A stretch of 64,000 nucleotides of DNA, taken from Ruminiclostridium papyrosolvens DSM 2782. GTDB taxonomy: Bacteria > Bacillota > Clostridia > Acetivibrionales > DSM-1351. The notes beneath the pieces were generated by a model that saw nothing but the letters and a program-made list of their open reading frames with translations, was not told the origin of the DNA and did no database searches. Positions 2-41,659 of this stretch are shown here, one piece after another. The stretch lies in assembly GCF_029318685.1 (NCBI RefSeq), contig NZ_CP119677.1:2409001-2473000 (forward strand), in the 5' to 3' direction. Each line of letters starts with the position of its first letter. Within the stretch, counting starts at the first letter, position 1. A program made the translations under genes and the position numbers.

Positions 2-316
2 TCTGCAAACAAGCTTGGAAAGGCTGTTATGCCTGTAGTATTTACAAGTATGCTGCAAGGTAAGCTTGAGTTTGACGAAGCTTCTGATTTCAGAGAAGTA
101 TATGCAATAAGCCAAACACCTCAGGTGGTATTGGACCATCAGGCAAGAGATGATAATGGAGGCTTGGCGTTATCCTGGGATTACGTTTCTGATGCCTTTG
201 ACTATGGAGAGCTTAAAAATATGTTTGAAATATATATTGAGCAAATAAAAGGACTGATAGAAAGCGACTGCTGGGATACGCCTGTATTTATCAAAGAAAA
301 CCGTGAACATTCATAA
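2..316 (+). CDS. NRPS heterocyclization (Cy) domain protein, 3' end only
   Basis: The reading frame is open to the left edge of the window (the first in-frame codons give S-A-N-K-L-G-K-A-V before the first Met), so this is the C-terminal end of a larger gene. The visible ~104 residues match the end of a Cy/condensation domain: the segment P-V-V-F-T-S followed by the ISQTPQV stretch also occurs in the Cy domain of the PchF-like protein downstream (P-I-V-F-T-S and ISQTPQV). The gene stops 17 bp before the next NRPS gene, which begins with an A domain, so it would supply the Cy domain, and perhaps the aryl carrier domain, missing from that protein. In Pseudomonas PchE these parts are one polypeptide (ArCP-Cy-A-E-PCP); here the equivalent seems divided over two genes. 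The N-terminal domains cannot be seen. Confidence 0.85.
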   Translation, partial: SANKLGKAVMPVVFTSMLQGKLEFDEASDFREVYAISQTPQVVLDHQARDDNGGLALSWDYVSDAFDYGELKNMFEIYIEQIKGLIESDCWDTPVFIKENREHS

Positions 317-4328: not shown

Positions 4329-7300
4329 ATGAAATTAATCAATGCAAAAGATATTTTGGATTATTATAAAAAAATAGGTATAGAGCTATGGAGTGAAGCC
4401 GGAAAGTTAAAATATAAAGCTCCCCAAATGTCCTTATCAGAGGAACATATTAAGGTGCTGAAAGAAAACAAGGAAGAGCTTCTTGATTATCTGGAAAATA
4501 AGAAAGAGGATATAGCAATAACTATAGACAGAAATTCCAGATACGAAGCCTTTCCTATGAACGATGTTCAAACGGCCTATCTCCTTGGGAGAAAGAATAC
4601 CTTTGAGTATAGCGGAGTAGCCTGCCATGTTTATTTTGAGGTAAATTATGATAAATTAAATATAGAGAAAGTAAGAAAGACTTGGGATTTGTTAGTCTCA
4701 AGACATGATATGTTAAGAGCTGTTATGAATGAGAATGGATATCAGCAAATCTTAGAAGCAGTACCGGAGCTTGATATACCCTATATTGATATAACAGAAG
4801 ATAGTTTAAAGGATAATGAAGAAATTCAATCTCTCAGAAAGGAAATGAGCCATAGAATATATGAATTAGGCAAGTGGCCAATGTTTGGCATTGCTGTTTC
4901 AAAGCATAATAGAGGGGCTACTCTGCATTTTTCAATGGAATTTTTAGTTGCTGACTGGACAAGCATATGGTTACTATTATCTGAGTTTGAAGCTTTGTAT
5001 TTTAGTTTGGATAAAGTACTTCCTGATTTTCAATTGAGCTTTAGAGATTATATCTTAGCAGAGCGCAGGCTAAAAACTTCTGATGCTTATGAAACTGATA
5101 AAGCTTATTGGATAAAGCAGATTGAACAATTTCCTGCAGCGCCTGAACTTCCGCTGAAAATATCAATGGATATAAATGATAAGCCTGCTTTTAAAAGAAT
5201 TCTTATGAAAATGGATATTGATAAATGGCTGTCCTTTAAAAGCAATGCGCAAAAATGCGGAATTACGCCTACAGTTGCCGTATTGGCGGTCTATGCCGAG
5301 GTTATTGAGCGTTGGAGCAATAATAAAGAATTTTTAATTAACTTAACAGTTCTAAATCGTATGCCCTTACATGAGGATATTAACAAGCTTGTGGGAGACT
5401 TCACAACGGTAAGCCTTCTTGCTGTTGATGCCGGTAAAAGCAATGAGTTTACCGAATTTGCCAAGAGCATAAACAGTAAATTATTTGAAGATCTTGATCA
5501 TAGGCTGTATTCCGGTATTGAAGTTATTAGAGAGTTGGCAAGAAAACGAAACCAGCCTTCTTTAATGCCAATTGTTTTTACCAGTGCCATAGGATTAATT
5601 GACAGTAATAATCAATTATTGGGTAAGGTAGAGGGCTTTGGAATTTCTCAAACTCCACAGGTTTTTATAGATTGTCAGGCAATGGATGGTAACTTTGGAT
5701 TACAGATAAATTGGGATATAAGAGAGGGCATTTTTCCTGATGGAATGATTGCAGATATGTTTCAAGCCTTTGAGGAAAAAATCTATAGGCTGTCAGCAGG
5801 GCTGGAGGAATGGAGCAATAACATGGGAATTGATATTCCACAATGGCAAGTACGGGAGAGGGCAGAAGCAAATGCTACAAAAACAGCTTTACCAAAAGGG
5901 TTTTTGTATTCAAAATTTTTAGAACAGGTTAAAATTAGGCCAAATGACATAGCGGTTGACGACGGAGAAGGTCAGTTTACATATAAAGAACTTGATAGCT
6001 TGGCAAAGGCTATCGCTTATGAGATTGTAAAGCACGGCGGGAATAAGCAGGATAAAATTGCGGTGGTTATGGATAAAAGCAGATATCAGGTAGCTGCTGT
6101 TTTAGGGATTCTATACATGGGAGGTGTATATGTTCCCGTTGATGCCAAGCAGGCTGGGTTACGAAGAAATACAATTCTGGATAACTTGGGGAGTAATATT
6201 GTGCTGACGTTATCTTGTAATAACAACATATACACCGAAAATATCTGTACTTTAGAGGTAGATAGGATTATTCGTCCAAATGATTTTGAAGTTGCAGAAA
6301 ACCAAATTGAAAATCCTGCATATATTATATATACCTCGGGTTCAACAGGACTTCCCAAAGGAGTAGTGATTTCACATAAGGCTGCGGTAAATACAATTGA
6401 AGACATAAATAAAAAATTTCAGGTTAAGAGTTCAGACAAAATATTGGCATTATCTCAGTTGAATTTTGATTTATCTGTTTATGACATATTTGGTATGTTG
6501 TCAGTTGGCGGTACAATAATTTATCCAAAAAATGAACATTATTTAAACCCGTCCTACTGGGCTGATTTGATTGTAAAACATAATATTACAATTTGGAACA
6601 GTGTCCCTGCTCTTATGAAAATGCTGCTGACACAGTTGCAGACAGAGACTTCTAAAAGAGAAATGCCTTTGAGACTGGTACTGCTTTCGGGCGACTGGAT
6701 ACCCTTAAATATGCCTGAACAATTAGCGCAGCAGATATCCGAAATAGAAGTAATATGCTTAGGAGGCGCTACAGAAGCTTCCATATGGTCAATTTTTCAC
6801 AGTTTCACGGAAATAAAGCCCCATTGGAGCAGTATTCCTTACGGAAAGCCTCTGTCTAATCAAAGCTTTCGAATATTAGATAAAAACTATAGAGATTGTC
6901 CCGTATGGGTAGCAGGATATATATATATTGCAGGTGCCGGTTTGGCAGAAGGCTACTATCAGGATACAGAATTGACTGAAGCAAAGTTTTTTAAGCATCC
7001 TTTTGATGGACAAAGAATATATAAAACAGGAGATATGGGAAGATATCTTCCGGGTGGAGAGATTGAGTTTCTAGGGAGAGCAGACTATCAAATAAAGCTC
7101 AATGGACACAGAATTGAATTAGGGGAAATTGAAAGTGCAATTAATAAGCATCCTTCTGTATCAGCAGCAGTAGCTTTTGTTGATGAAGGCAAAAATGAAT
7201 TATGTGCCGTTATAGAGCCTGCTACAATTGAGGACTACAGTGAAGCCATGGCTGACCTGAAATTTAATGAACTGACCTCCAATATAGAGGCAGAAGTCGG

Positions 7301-36670: not shown

Positions 36671-36997
36671 TTAGAACTTCTCCATTTTTTCAACATTAAT
36701 AACAAATATAGTTGAACCACCAACACTTACCTCTGTTCCAACGGTAGCGAAAATTCCCGGAAGTGCTCCATGGGTTGTAGTTTGAACATACTGCGTTCGT
36801 CTTTTGGAATTTGCTTTAATAATCTCTAAAACAGGTTCCAGCTCTTCATCATTTATGCCAATAAGTAAAGTTGTATTACCAGTCCTAAGAAATGAGCCGG
36901 TTGAGCAAAGTTTAGTTACGTAATAACCACTGTTGTTAAGTTCTTCAATAACAGTATACGAATCATCATCATGTACTATGGAAAAGATTAATTTCAT
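36671..36997 (-). CDS. darA: Cyclic-di-AMP receptor protein DarA/PstA
   Basis: 108 residues, a PII-like protein of the CdAMP_rec family: M-K-L-I-F-S-I-V-H-D-D-D at the N-terminus, then G-S-F-L-R-T-G-N-T-T-L-L-I-G, and a C-terminal G-G-S-T-I-F-V-I. This family binds c-di-AMP as a trimer; its output partner is unknown in most species. The gene is the last of an operon that begins with a c-di-AMP riboswitch, and starts 11 bp after ablB. That the receptor is encoded under control of its own ligand is the notable point. Confidence 0.93.
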   Translation of the reverse strand: MKLIFSIVHDDDSYTVIEELNNSGYYVTKLCSTGSFLRTGNTTLLIGINDEELEPVLEIIKANSKRRTQYVQTTTHGALPGIFATVGTEVSVGGSTIFVINVEKMEKF

Positions 36998-37008
36998 CTT
37001 AATTCCCC

Positions 37009-37869
37009 CTAAATATTTTTAACCCATATATTCATATCCTCGTACCTTCCGCATATATGGCAGTTATTTATAAGTCTACCTCTATAACGATAGTTTAGTT
37101 TGCTTAAGGACTTATTTATACCCGGATTAATGGCTCTTGCCAGGCTGTAAAAGGATTTGAATCCTTTATTGGTAAGCTCCTGCTCAAGGGACTCTATAAT
37201 GGAAGTTAATAAACCTTTTCCACGGTAGTCCGGCTGAGTTGCGCAATCGGTTATTTCTGCGTTCATATTTAACAAATCCAACTCTGCTGATGCAATACTT
37301 ATGATTTTGCCATTTTCAACTGCAACCTTAAATATGGTTTGTCTGTTAATAATTTTACTCAGATAAACTTCATTAAAAATGGGCGTCGGATATGTTGAAA
37401 ATACGCTTGAGAATAATCTGGCCATCTCAGGTATATCATTACTTTCAGCTCGTCTTATTGTATACTTAATCGTATCTGTCGGACGGGAATTTGTGGAATA
37501 TAAAGTAGTATTCTCAAGAATTTCATTTTCTTTTTGAATGAAATCTGATATTTCACGCTCTTTGTCAATAAAGTAAGATACACAATATGCATCTTCACCG
37601 TCAAAAAATCCGTTTATTAACCCCTCAACTTTAAAATGCAAATTTCTAAAGGTATCAAGGTTTTTAATTCTGCAATTTGTTATTACTTTGCCAAGTTCAA
37701 TTTCTTTTGCGAAATCTAATATATTTAGTATCTCTCTGGTCGAAATATTATCATAGTCCAGGATTTTAAGTCTTTTATTAATCTGGTCTATAAATATTTT
37801 AACTTTATCTATGTTGCTGTAGTAAATAAGTTGATTATTTTCATGTAATTTATGATTTAATAGTGTCAT
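37009..37869 (-). CDS. ablB: Beta-lysine N6-acetyltransferase (AblB, GNAT family)
   Basis: 286 residues. A GNAT fold occupies the C-terminal half (about 130-280), with the acetyl-CoA loop Q-P-D-Y-R-G-K-G-L-L-T and the N-terminal portion G-L-I-N-G-F-F-D-G-E-D-A found in AblB. The enzyme acetylates beta-lysine to N6-acetyl-beta-lysine, a compatible solute known from methanogens and some bacteria. It overlaps the end of ablA by 20 bp and has SD AGAAGGGAAC inside that gene. Confidence 0.92.
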   Translation of the reverse strand: MTLLNHKLHENNQLIYYSNIDKVKIFIDQINKRLKILDYDNISTREILNILDFAKEIELGKVITNCRIKNLDTFRNLHFKVEGLINGFFDGEDAYCVSYFIDKEREISDFIQKENEILENTTLYSTNSRPTDTIKYTIRRAESNDIPEMARLFSSVFSTYPTPIFNEVYLSKIINRQTIFKVAVENGKIISIASAELDLLNMNAEITDCATQPDYRGKGLLTSIIESLEQELTNKGFKSFYSLARAINPGINKSLSKLNYRYRGRLINNCHICGRYEDMNIWVKNI

Positions 37870-39127
37870 GAAATTGTTCCCTTCTGTTTATTCTAATATT
37901 GTTTCTAGGAATAAGACAAATTTCCTTTTCTTGAAATAGTTTTTCTAATCCCCTGCATGCGCTTTCCTTATACTTGTCGCATAAACCACATTCGTGACAT
38001 TGGTGTGTTTTATCCTGCGGCTCTGTATAACTGCATATTACTCCTTCAAAATTCCTTAATATAACTTTATCATTTGATTGTGATAATAAATATTGAGGGT
38101 TTACAGGAATTTTACCGCCGCCGCCTGGAGCATCAATAACAAAGGTTGGAACTGCAAAACCTGATGTATGACCTCTTAGCATTTCTATTATTTCAACCCC
38201 GACTGTCACCGGAGTCCTGAAATGTTCAATTCCCTCTGAAAGGTCACATTGGTAAAGATAATATGGTCTTACTCTTGACTTCACAAGTCCTTGGACCAAA
38301 TTTTTCATAATGTAGGGACAATCATTTATATTGCTGAGTAATACAGATTGATTACCAAGGGGAATACCGGCATCTGACAACATTTCACATGCTTTAATTG
38401 CCTCAGGGGTCAGTTCATTCGGATGGTTGAATTGAGTATTAATCCATAAAGGATGGTATTTTTTTAGCATATTACATAATTCAGGGGTAATTCTTTGAGG
38501 CATGACGACAGGTACTCTTGTGCCAATACGAATTACTTCTACGTGATTTATTGCTTTTAAGCTTTTGAGTATATATTCAAGACGTTCATTCGATATACAT
38601 AAGGCATCTCCACCGGACAGAATAACGTCTCTTATTTGCTTTGTGTTCTTTATATATTCAATTGCTTTATTAACATTAGTAATAGAAAGCTCTTTATCGT
38701 CGTTTCCGGCAAATCTTCTCCTTGTACAGTGTCGGCAATACATTGAGCACTGATCGGTAACAAGAAGCAATGCTCTGTCCGGATACCTATGGGTTAGTCC
38801 ATTAACAGGACTATCTATTCCTTCGTGCAGTGGATCACTGCTATCACATGTTGATATATATGTTTCATTAATTGTAGGTACGGCTTGCTTTCTTATGGGG
38901 CAAGCCGGGTCTTCCGGATTCATTAATGTTACATAGTAAGGAGTTATTGCCATTCGTAGCTTTTTCAGACACTTCTCTATTCCCCTTATTTCCTCAACAG
39001 TTAAGTTTACTACCTGTTCCAATTGAGTAATCGTTGTTATTCTATTGGCAAGCTGCCATCGCCAATCATTCCATTCATACTCGGTTACGTTCTTCCACAT
39101 AGGTATGTCCTTATAATTTCTTTGCAT
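37850..39127 (-). CDS. ablA: Lysine 2,3-aminomutase (AblA)
   Basis: About 425 residues. Radical-SAM motif C-S-M-Y-C-R-H-C (three cluster cysteines, CxxxCxxC) at about residue 135-145, PLP-binding region with the family's D-A-P-G-G-G-G-K-I-P segment, and a zinc-binding C-terminal Cys group (C-H-E-C-G-L-C). Converts L-lysine to L-beta-lysine, the substrate of AblB. The ATG at 39127 has GAAGGGAGAG 7 bp upstream; a TTG one codon earlier is less likely. It follows the ABC ATPase gene by 34 bp, so uptake and conversion of lysine are linked. Confidence 0.95.
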   Translation of the reverse strand: MQRNYKDIPMWKNVTEYEWNDWRWQLANRITTITQLEQVVNLTVEEIRGIEKCLKKLRMAITPYYVTLMNPEDPACPIRKQAVPTINETYISTCDSSDPLHEGIDSPVNGLTHRYPDRALLLVTDQCSMYCRHCTRRRFAGNDDKELSITNVNKAIEYIKNTKQIRDVILSGGDALCISNERLEYILKSLKAINHVEVIRIGTRVPVVMPQRITPELCNMLKKYHPLWINTQFNHPNELTPEAIKACEMLSDAGIPLGNQSVLLSNINDCPYIMKNLVQGLVKSRVRPYYLYQCDLSEGIEHFRTPVTVGVEIIEMLRGHTSGFAVPTFVIDAPGGGGKIPVNPQYLLSQSNDKVILRNFEGVICSYTEPQDKTHQCHECGLCDKYKESACRGLEKLFQEKEICLIPRNNIRINRREQFHDTIKS

Positions 39128-39161
39128 CAAATCTCTCCCTTCATTTCCTTAGATGCTAAGT

Positions 39162-39887
39162 CTATAGAATTTTACTTAGAAATGTTTGAGTTCTTTCATT
39201 CTGTGGATTAGTAAATATATGATCAGGAGTTCCTTCTTCGAGGATTTTACCATCATCCATAAAAATCACTCTATCGGATACTTCTCTTGCAAAGCCCATT
39301 TCGTGACTCACAATAATCATTGTCATTCCTTCAAGTGCCAATTCTTTCATTACATTGAGTACTTCTCCAACCAACTCCGGATCAAGGGCTGAAGTTGGTT
39401 CGTCAAATAAGATCATTTGAGGTTTCATGGCCAAGGTACGTGCAATTGCAACTCTTTGTTTCTGACCGCCTGACAGCATAGCCGGATAAGCATCCTTTTT
39501 GTCAATTAACCCCACCTTTTCAAGAAGCCCCAAGGCCTCGGGAATAGCTATCTGTTTATTTTCACCTTTAACTTGGACAGGTCCTTCTATAATATTTCCC
39601 AGGACTGTTTTATGAGGAAATAAATTGAAGTGCTGAAAAACCATACCAACATTTTGACGCATTTTATTTATTGTTCGTTCTTTGTTTTCAATTCGTACCC
39701 CATTTATATTAATTACACCTTTTTGTTTTTTTTCCAGAAAATTAATACATCTCAGTAATGTACTTTTTCCTGAGCCGCTGGGCCCGATTATTACTACTAC
39801 CTCGCCTTCTTCCACCGATAGATTTATTCCTTTTAATATTTCATGTTTTCCAAAACTCTTGTGTAGATTCTTTACTTCCAGCATCAT
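39162..39887 (-). CDS. Polar amino acid ABC transporter, ATP-binding protein (GlnQ-like)
   Basis: 241 residues. Walker [10 protein letters not shown], signature L-S-G-G-Q-K-Q-R-V, Walker [15 protein letters not shown], typical of the HisP/GlnQ class. The start at 39887 is preferred to 39911 because AGGAGTGAG lies 7 bp upstream, which also avoids a 10-bp overlap with the permease gene. Works with the permease and the permuted binding protein; lysine is the likely substrate because lysine aminomutase follows. Confidence 0.94.
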
Positions 39888-39900
39888 GTTTATCTCACTC

Positions 39901-40557
39901 CTATCTGTCACTAACGGCTAGTCTTTTCTCAAGTTTATGCACGAAGAATCCAAGTATTGAGGTCATTATAAAATAATAAATTCCAGCAATTAAAAAGTAC
40001 TCCATAAAACGGAATGTAGAAGAACCCATCTGTTGAGATTTAAGTAATAACTCTTTTACTGTTACTGCACTAGCAAGTGAGGAATCTTTTGTCGCAATTA
40101 TAAATTGGTTTCCCAATGGTGGAACAGCTCGCTTTAAAGCCTGAGGAAGTATAATACGGTACATAGCCCTAAATTTACTCATTCCAATAGACCGGGCAGC
40201 TTCAAACTGCCCTCTGTCTATTGATTTAATTGCGCCTCGGAATATTTCTGATATATATGCCCCATTGTGGAGACCAAAAGCAATTATTGCAGAAGGATAT
40301 GCGGAAAGATTAACAATATCAGTTAACCCATAATATACAATGAATAATTGTAATAATATAGGCGTGCCTCTGACCAAATTAACGTAAAAAGTTGCTGGAT
40401 AATATATAAGCTTTATTTTAGAAATTCTGCACATTGACGTTAAAAGTCCAATTACCAAACCGACTATTATGGCTGCAGCTGTTATTTTTAGTGTTTCAAA
40501 TGCCGCAGGTAAAAATATCGGAAATTTTTCAATTAGTATGCTCCAATCGTATTTCAA
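39901..40557 (-). CDS. Polar amino acid ABC transporter, permease protein
   Basis: 218 residues with five membrane helices of the HisMQ class; coupling motif [22 protein letters not shown] single permease gene implies a homodimer. It starts 16 bp after the binding-protein gene; SD GGAGGA. Confidence 0.94.
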
Positions 40558-40573
40558 TAAATTATCCTCCTGC

Positions 40574-41401
40574 CTATTTCAAATCGTCCGGACTGTTTAT
40601 TTTTGAATCATTCCTTACAATTAATTGTGCACCTGAATAATAGTAAGGGTCTGTGAAGTCAACTACTTCAGAACGGTCCTTACTTATAGCCATACTACCA
40701 AAAATACCGTCATAGCGTTTACTCCTCAGGCCTTCAAGTATTCCGCTCCAATCGGTGGTAATGGGTTCGTAGCTGACCCCCAGTCGCTTTGCTACTTCTT
40801 TTCCAATATCGACATCGAAGCCCGTAAGTTCTTCTTTATCATTGAAGTAATTAAATGGAGGATAACCTCCGCTCATTGCAAATTTTATTTTTCCCGCCTT
40901 CTTAACTCTATCCAGACTATCATCAGTTGCAGGTTTTTCATTGGGGATTGTTGGTTTATAATCAACTCCATCAAGGATATTAATGTCGAAATATTTTTTA
41001 CTGATTTTTTCATATGTACCATCAGAAATTATTTCATTTAATACTTTGTTTATAGCCTGTCTCAGGGCATCGTCCTTCTGATTAATTGCAACCGCAATGG
41101 TTTCTTTATATAATAAATCTCCTGCAAGTTTTAGATTTTTATAGCCGCCGTCTCTTATACCGATTGTTCCAACCATTCGGTCTGTTATTACTCCATCAAT
41201 TCTTCCGTTGGACAATTCCCAAAGAGTCAATGTATCATCCTTGTAAAGCTTTACTTCCTTAACTTTAGTCAGCTTTCTAGCTTGTTCTTCAAAGGTTGTT
41301 CCGGTAACCACTCCAATATTTACTCCTTTACTTCCACATCCTGCCAGCAATATAAGTATTAGTATTACCGGGAAAATAGATTTCAATTTGTTTCTAAACA
41401 T
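40574..41401 (-). CDS. Circularly permuted amino-acid-binding lipoprotein (SBP_bac_3 fold)
   Basis: 275 residues. Lipobox L-A-G-C, anchor Cys22. The order of the two halves is reversed compared with ordinary family-3 binding proteins. Residues about 27-140 (V-N-I-G-V-V-T-G-T-T ... I-S-D-G-T-Y-E-K-I-S-K-K-Y-F) are the piece that normally forms the second half; residues about 160-275 (I-K-F-A-M-S-G-G-Y-P-P-F-N-Y-F ... D-F-T-D-P-Y-Y-Y-S-G-A-Q-L) are the normal beginning. The protein stops at N-S-P-D-D-L-K, exactly where ordinary members continue with G-x-x-I-G-V-x-x-G-T-T, which is how this one starts. No fragment of a second copy lies beside it, and the SD (GGGGAGG) and lipoprotein signal are intact. 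First gene of the c-di-AMP riboswitch operon. Confidence 0.92.
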   Translation of the reverse strand: MFRNKLKSIFPVILILILLAGCGSKGVNIGVVTGTTFEEQARKLTKVKEVKLYKDDTLTLWELSNGRIDGVITDRMVGTIGIRDGGYKNLKLAGDLLYKETIAVAINQKDDALRQAINKVLNEIISDGTYEKISKKYFDINILDGVDYKPTIPNEKPATDDSLDRVKKAGKIKFAMSGGYPPFNYFNDKEELTGFDVDIGKEVAKRLGVSYEPITTDWSGILEGLRSKRYDGIFGSMAISKDRSEVVDFTDPYYYSGAQLIVRNDSKINSPDDLK

Positions 41402-41437: not shown

Positions 41438-41469
41438 AAAAAAACACTATGAAAGAGTTATCCATAGCG
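41438..41469 (-). terminator. Riboswitch-controlled intrinsic terminator
   Basis: On the minus strand CGCTATG / CATAGTG (7 pairs, one G-U) followed by seven T and more T-rich sequence, between the aptamer and the SD of the binding-protein gene. A competing pairing (TGTACC/GGTACA, near 41480-41500) precedes it, as expected for a riboswitch that acts at termination. Confidence 0.85.
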
Positions 41470-41510
41470 CATAAAAGGGTGTACCTAATAAAAGGTACAA
41501 CTAATGCATA

Positions 41511-41632
41511 TTAATCACCTTCTCTTTCAATGCTTACGAGATTAGCTGACGGGTTCGGTTTGAAAGATTACCCTACCTTAACTACGGACTCACCCCAAAT
41601 AATTGGTTCTCCCGTTCCATTCTATGGATTAA
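41511..41632 (-). ncRNA. Cyclic-di-AMP riboswitch (ydaO/yuaA motif)
   Basis: Read on the minus strand the conserved blocks of the ydaO motif are all present: ACGGGAGAACCAA, TTGGGGTGAGTCC, AGGTAGGGTAA, AACCGAACCCGTCAGCTAA and CGTAAGC. Helix P1 closes with TTAATC (from 41632) and GATTAA (41511-41516). This class binds c-di-AMP and usually turns the downstream genes off; the terminator just behind it supports that here. Controlled genes: amino acid ABC transporter, ablA, ablB, darA. Confidence 0.94.
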
Positions 41633-41659
41633 GCAAAATTTATATATTAAGTTTTAATA

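Follow-up and report, generated by a model that had tools for sequence, protein, structure and literature searches.

A circularly permuted family-3 solute-binding protein in Ruminiclostridium papyrosolvens, with indications of at least three separate permutations in the family

The gene at positions 40574 to 41401 in a 64,000-nucleotide stretch of the Ruminiclostridium papyrosolvens DSM 2782 genome (the whole of which is referred to here as the window) raises the question of whether a family-3 solute-binding protein (SBP) can exist with the two halves of its chain in reversed order and, if so, how that order arose and what it changes. A sequence-only reading of the locus had proposed a naturally circularly permuted amino-acid-binding protein, a proposal that is followed up here by computational analysis. 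The parts of the gene are given below, with relatives cited by locus number and class A denoting the SBPs that share the breakpoint of the window protein.

40574..41401, minus strand: whole coding sequence of the permuted SBP_bac_3 lipoprotein, 275 aa (translation, Pfam, NCBIfam, PDB, pairwise alignments)
41336..41401, minus strand: lipoprotein signal peptide with lipobox Cys22, LAGC (translation; AlphaFold helix 6-20, strand from 27)
40976..41329, minus strand: residues 25-142, canonical C-terminal half (matches L075 144-259 and L133 149-264)
40922..40975, minus strand: residues 143-160, linker from old C-terminus to old N-terminus (class A alignment)
40577..40921, minus strand: residues 161-275, canonical N-terminal half with the new C-terminus SPDDLK (matches L075 30-144)

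As read from the sequence, the open reading frame starts with ATG behind a Shine-Dalgarno-like GGGGAGG and carries the lipobox LAGC, whose Cys is residue 22, followed by GSKGVNIGVVTGTTFEE; its C-terminal end is YYYSGAQLIVRNDSKINSPDDLK. Residues 25-142 comprise most of lobe D2 together with the returning C-terminal part of D1, and residues 161-275 the N-terminal part of D1, the hinge crossing and the first D2 strand. The linker between them is partly conserved across class A and was modelled with a mean pLDDT of 83 (block 141-150) and 91 (block 151-160). Four residues separate the lipobox Cys from the first strand in the window SBP; the corresponding spacers span about 16 residues in L112 and 18 in L113, and a very short tether is therefore no rule. 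All class A proteins but L071, L072 and L073 were read as having a Cys at the end of the signal, which makes 11 of 14. By eye, L071 and L072 appear to be anchored by an uncleaved N-terminal helix, and the Spirochaete protein L073 appears to be a cleaved soluble form.

In canonical family-3 SBPs, the counterpart of ...SPDDLK precedes the counterpart of GVNIGVV, an order that the window protein inverts. SBP_bac_3 (PF00497) matched it with 133.6 bits against a cut-off of 26.4, in two stretches, the better of which aligned protein residues 172-267 with profile positions 1-95, such that the start of the profile falls in the C-terminal half and the canonical profile order is lost. Likewise, residues 156-275 corresponded to positions 27-148 of the 266 in NCBIfam NF008426, residues 25-142 to positions 132-257 of the 260 in NF011586, and, in PDB 3vv5, residues 28-131 and 140-255 to window residues 162-265 and 25-140, respectively. 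Pfam names only family-3-type models for the window SBP and the PDB sequence matches listed are family-3 proteins; PF00497 was also matched by all 10 class A and all 15 class C rows searched (E up to 0.001; class C is described below). In pairwise alignment, canonical L133 was tiled without gap or overlap (window 161-274 on 35-148, window 24-142 on 149-264); the pieces overlapped by one residue against canonical L075, left five residues over against L076 and overlapped by 16 against canonical L132, where the local alignment extends into the window signal peptide. Because the pieces tile canonical SBPs in this manner, ...SPDDLK and GVNIGVV... are indeed joined in the circular sense. The Pfam, NCBIfam, PDB and pairwise alignments all agree, and both the reversal and circular joining of the halves and the profile comparison suggested by the sequence-only reading (reversed order with PF00497, NF008426 and NF011586 alike) were thereby borne out.

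Structure prediction, which the same reading had recommended, yielded a confident model that matches SBPs (AlphaFold, alignment of 10 class A proteins; mean pLDDT 86.8, pTM 0.79), and the three-dimensional fold of the window SBP is predicted to be retained. Model residues 162-257 superpose on ArgBP 1-96 at 0.9 A. End-to-end alignments were obtained for model residues 24-275 with OpuAC 2b4m (203 residues, 3.9 A, Z 12.1), and for the model with OpuAC 2b4l (209 residues, 4.1 A, Z 11.6) and with the canonical GlnPQ SBD1, the last over 176 residues at 3.3 A with Z 10.8; end-to-end matches of this kind to Type II SBPs (VIA) have Z of 10-12. That canonical SBPs are matched end to end as well is probably due to the pseudo-symmetry of the two lobes: class A would amount to a swap of pseudo-symmetric lobes in chain order, so that aligners which keep that order would still align it from end to end. 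Foldseek with the whole model likewise returned a mixture of partial and pseudo-symmetric matches, which alone neither prove nor disprove permutation. No solved permuted family-3 structure was found among the best 60 of 212 PDB sequence matches to the window SBP, the best 60 of 86 to class C, or the 50 matches listed per fold search.

The arrangement is not peculiar to one genome. Scanning contigs for relatives of the window SBP returned 11 loci, of which seven are permuted (in Anaerobacterium chartisolvens, a Thermincola ferriacetica MAG, Clostridia SKW158, Desulfitobacteriaceae STF2_130, and one MAG each of Mcinerneyibacteriota, Bacillota and Spirochaetes), three are canonical-order sisters with 60-69% identity over the best segment (L074, L075 and L076) and one is a more distant SBP of canonical order (L077). 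The search of other genomes that had been proposed found the same order in 14 distinct genomes, with titles including Bacillota, Mcinerneyibacteriota and Spirochaetes, a count of ordinary class A that sets aside two divergent members (L114 and L120). Related permease and ATPase genes follow the SBP gene in all 14, the contig of L071 stopping inside the latter.

Two further permuted groups, classes B and C, differ from class A in their breakpoints. Class B runs from ...KPEDLAGKKVG to ...AQVIVV(R/Q)P, and class C from about VKVIDIPLTEEEYAFGV to about VIIDEAPAQSIVKAINELN, the N-termini of the latter having the form KILDTEYADEDYAICVAKEN... or KVIDIPLTEEEYAFGV... Among 58 genomes of the window's order, at least 20 encode a permuted SBP of class A, B or C: class A was found in at least five (G000, G035, G032, G046, G042), class B in at least two (G016, G057) and class C in at least 13, inclusive of L060, where only an internal start is visible. 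When genomes were sampled evenly under strict thresholds, class A turned up in at least 2 and class C in at least 31 of 391 genomes of the window's taxonomic class, Clostridia (loci L079-L108 for the latter), and class B in at least 1 of 382 genomes. As no more than six candidates were scored per genome under strict E-values, all of these sample counts are lower bounds. A class A model run against 398 genomes of the phylum matched at least 18, eight over both halves (six ordinary class A proteins, the window's included, and the divergent L114 and L120) and 10 best in one half; a scripted check found no permuted order among these 10, and L115, L116 and L118 (full reading) as well as L119 and L124 (operons) are canonical. 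Class C is a common SBP group with permuted order, and no Pfam or NCBIfam match seen notes that order. At L138 (G010), a canonical SBP gene (4986-6029) adjoins a class C gene (6223-7113) upstream of a single permease and ATPase.

How many origins these classes represent was addressed with trees for which the permuted proteins were cut and reordered in silico. The classes had been named by breakpoint before any tree was built; eight open reading frames with one half detected, seven of them class C, were excluded, and 91 distinct rows were thinned to 75 by the removal of near-copies (40 canonical, 14 A, 2 B and 19 C). Each class formed one clade (A 99/91, B 98/80, C 100/99), class A within a 25-row set containing 11 canonical rows (100/99), class B within a 12-row set containing 10 canonical rows (100/99), and class C adjoining canonical L005 (98/83). 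The tree was rooted at the midpoint and carried warnings on the long branches L114, L120, L104 and L077; that the canonical order came first is therefore parsimony rather than proof. Taken together, these placements indicate that family-3 SBPs were permuted at least three separate times. A single ancient permutation, of which A, B and C would be later re-permutations or shifted ends, could appeal to the breakpoints of classes A and B, which are some 10 residues from each other in one stretch of D2. We consider it very unlikely, since each class is placed among proteins of canonical order, a relative of class B with canonical order is encoded in a collinear operon (L139), and AU tests reject every pairwise union (A+B, p 9.8e-72; B+C, p 1.2e-11; A+C, p 9.0e-6). 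A single origin of the classes was rejected on these pairwise tests.

Trees of the single halves, built without L114, L120 and the class C rows, bear on whether the protein might instead be a reverse-order fusion of halves taken from two separate SBP genes. Both class A halves fall in the same canonical subfamily of 23 rows (half 1, 100/100; half 2, 100/99) and both class B halves within the same 12 rows (98/98 and 99/97), so that neither protein is a chimera of distant genes, and a chimera of two SBP subfamilies was rejected. Details do disagree for class A and two canonical-order SBPs:

L119: canonical-order SBP, L132 positions 6004-6822
L124: canonical-order SBP, L133 positions 5935-6738

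Class A is a single clade at just 44/34 in the half-1 tree, where class B is split, and the half-2 tree splits class A, with L119 and L124 inside it (81/84); the first half of L119/L124 is basal. Such disagreement lends domain shuffling some colour, and yet the shared, highly supported subfamilies and the gapless tiling of L133 make a fusion of two different genes most improbable. Recombination within one SBP subfamily is a possible source of the permuted order, and either recombination or a reversal of the permutation is possible for L119 and L124.

The window protein is best explained as a functional, naturally permuted amino-acid-binding lipoprotein with a predicted Type II fold. What took place, in our reading, is the rearrangement of a canonical SBP gene, now preserved as class A in 14 genomes and under purifying selection where this was measured, with classes B and C as separate cases; we hold this with high confidence. 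The old C-terminus is joined to the old N-terminus via the 18-residue linker, and the new termini were opened immediately ahead of the strand GVNIGVV. Their assignment to a lobe derives from the secondary structure, the extent of the alignments and the domain limits of LAO. ArgBP domain-1 chains (6gpc, 6y16) align as far as about window residue 258, which should put the new termini of classes A and B in D2, and by homology those of class C as well, a placement in line with the LAO domain limits; the anchored N-terminus would in that case have left D1, and all three permuted classes would, by inference, have their N-terminal anchor on D2 where canonical SBPs have it on D1. A first idea that the new termini sit at the hinge was dropped, given that the ArgBP domain-1 chains align no further than about 258 and the last 17 residues should already belong to D2. 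The sequence-only reading had expected both termini and hinge to shift; the former part stands, as a move of N-terminus and anchor from D1 to D2 by inference, and the latter found no support from a model that is confident and SBP-like. The main physical effect of the permutation would accordingly be a lipid anchor seated on D2 instead of D1.

Canonical-order sisters stand in the same type of operon (L074, L075, L076, L132 and L133), and the window permease, which is 53-79% identical to five other class A permeases, shares 57-61% with those beside L074-L076 and 52 and 47% with those beside canonical L132 and L133; the figures for L074-L076 imply that one permease family serves both orders, and the suggestion that docking to the permease is altered is left unsupported by them. 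The picture is clearer still in class B, where gene order in the canonical operon L139 matches that of the permuted operons L050 and L053 (identities of 52-61% for the upstream open reading frame, 70-72% for the permease and 77-80% for the ATPase) and the SBP differs in the order of its halves. With the transporter genes so conserved, the permuted SBP has replaced, or arisen from, a canonical one while the transporter was kept.

The window gene stands in an operon whose members, in order from a c-di-AMP riboswitch, are the SBP, permease, ATPase, AblA, AblB and DarA, with small or negative intergenic gaps from SBP to DarA:

41515..41645, minus strand: c-di-AMP riboswitch aptamer RF00379 (97.8 bits, gathering score 38)
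41444..41470, minus strand: intrinsic-terminator-like hairpin with a T run behind it, placed after the aptamer and ahead of the SBP gene (expected to act as an OFF switch)
39901..40557, minus strand: ABC permease, polar amino-acid type, sole permease gene of the operon (Pfam, NCBIfam)
39162..39911, minus strand: ABC ATPase, polar amino-acid type (Pfam, NCBIfam)
37850..39130, minus strand: AblA, lysine 2,3-aminomutase (TIGR03820, 616 bits, cut-off 525)
37009..37869, minus strand: AblB, beta-lysine N-acetyltransferase (TIGR03827, 276 bits, cut-off 205)
36671..36997, minus strand: DarA-like c-di-AMP receptor (passes the cut-off of PF06153; scores 115 bits with NF058593, short of the 140 required)

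The gene string opened by a c-di-AMP riboswitch hence closes with a gene for a DarA-like c-di-AMP receptor (36671-36997). The SBP is linked in one string to AblA and AblB, both above cut-off. AblA stands beside four of the 14 class A operons, after the ATPase (window, L067, L069 and L070), and AblB accompanies it in two of these, the window and L067; in canonical L076 both lie just upstream of the SBP. AblA was not found in the available sequence beside the other 10 (the L071 contig ending inside the ATPase gene), which is why lysine is assigned from context. A c-di-AMP aptamer precedes three of the 14 operons (window, L067 and L069), with DapB (TIGR00036, 232 bits, cut-off 122) between aptamer and SBP in L069; none was found at the other 11 loci in the available sequence, the upstream part being short in L070 and L072. 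Both ablA and dapB are among the genes under Na+ riboswitches, and Dehalobacter ablA lies under a tandem Na+/c-di-AMP riboswitch at which high c-di-AMP ends transcription (PMC9337991). The abl linkage, the aptamers and this published regulation together make lysine the likely substrate and N-epsilon-acetyl-beta-lysine the likely end product, and the ligand of the window SBP is probably lysine. A scheme with a good chance of being right would thus have the SBP close on lysine between D1 and D2 in Venus-flytrap fashion and pass it on to a permease in which the product of the one permease gene occurs twice; a fall in c-di-AMP would release uptake through the riboswitch, and AblA and AblB would turn lysine into the osmolyte N-epsilon-acetyl-beta-lysine.

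Residues Arg243, Asp74, Thr35 and Thr36, which align with identical residues of the 3vv5 chain, show no variation across the 10 class A rows aligned and are also kept in L110-L113. We take these four to be the ligand-holding residues. The divergent class A members, L114 (L130 5756-6607, G641) and L120 (L131 1400-2317, G792), are without a lipobox, an adjacent permease/ATPase pair and the Arg243-equivalent, and keep Asp74; L120 stands immediately before genes for trehalose synthase and trehalose-phosphate synthase, and is perhaps a membrane-bound osmosensor. Were these two representative, the permuted SBP might be a membrane-tethered sensor that has lost its transport role; the window and 13 of 13 other non-divergent class A genes are nonetheless followed by permease and ATPase, with the ligand residues kept, and such a role is highly implausible for them.

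An assembly error or a rearranged pseudogene is ruled out, at vanishing probability, by the recurrence of the order in 14 distinct genomes, the confident model and the purifying selection in close relatives, where dN/dS is 0.062, 0.064 and 0.048 for the three pairs among class A L068, L110 and L111 (the window gene, with no comparably close relative in the sampled set, not being among them). The relatives thus indicate an old rearrangement that selection has preserved, and the sequence-only reading was upheld in that signal, ribosome site and operon place are intact and the gene is no pseudogene.

A broader proposition may be put forward tentatively, as one that we judge somewhat less probable than its negation: that permutation is a recurrent, selected route by which at least three events re-seated the tether from D1 to D2 with the cognate permease family unchanged. 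If true, the position of the tether on the SBP would itself evolve, and capture or docking would be tuned by it. Permuted SBPs and their close canonical sisters in matching operons constitute a natural experiment in which the permease family is the same and the ligand site similar while order and tether have moved, and the role of tether position in SBP-dependent ABC transport becomes testable, with a bearing on annotation, structure prediction and biosensor design.

Among known systems, canonical family-3 SBPs of the lysine/arginine type such as TTC0807 (3vv5) and LAO share with the window protein the family, the predicted fold, the conserved ligand residues and an operon with permease and ATPase; the window SBP differs in its swapped halves and in an N-terminus and anchor that would sit on D2, not D1. 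For use in FRET sensors, ligand-binding modules have reportedly been circularly permuted by engineering (Okada et al. 2009); judging by the title, they resemble the window SBP as permuted modules of this sort but are man-made. The Na+/c-di-AMP riboswitch system shares the osmolyte pathway and a c-di-AMP riboswitch on ablA, with no SBP or permutation seen in the parts of the account available (PMC9337991). CPSARST, as far as the available excerpt goes, reported permutation relations among the glycine-betaine SBPs OpuAC (2B4L) and ProX (1R9L, 1SW1) (PMC2395249). These are likewise SBPs related by circular permutation, but they were detected by structure at below 24% sequence identity, and no close canonical sister or operon was seen in that excerpt; a word search of the accessible text of an OpuAC paper (PMC2861598) returned no mention of permutation. 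In Treponema pallidum, TpMglB-2 (Tp0684) is a circularly permuted Type I SBP ('Type Ic / Cluster Bc') that binds glucose and has been crystallised, and for which its authors suggested tethering as a possible reason for the topology (PMC4990184); that such proteins are missing from the fold-search lists of the window model proves nothing by itself. TpMglB-2 too is a natural permutation of a tethered ABC-transporter SBP with Gram-positive relatives and ligand binding kept; it differs in being a Type I sugar SBP with another breakpoint, which requires a fourth hinge crossing, and in that its permuted part is 13% identical to the canonical protein, against 60-69% over the best segment for the canonical sisters of the window SBP. 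The sequence-only reading knew of no description of such a protein, which holds for family 3 in so far as the open-licence PMC literature searched, as available, yielded no natural permutation there, but not for SBPs at large, whose permutation is in print (PMC4990184, PMC2395249). What is new against these known permutations is the presence of close canonical sisters, the retention of permease families, and the indication of at least three separate events within one family.
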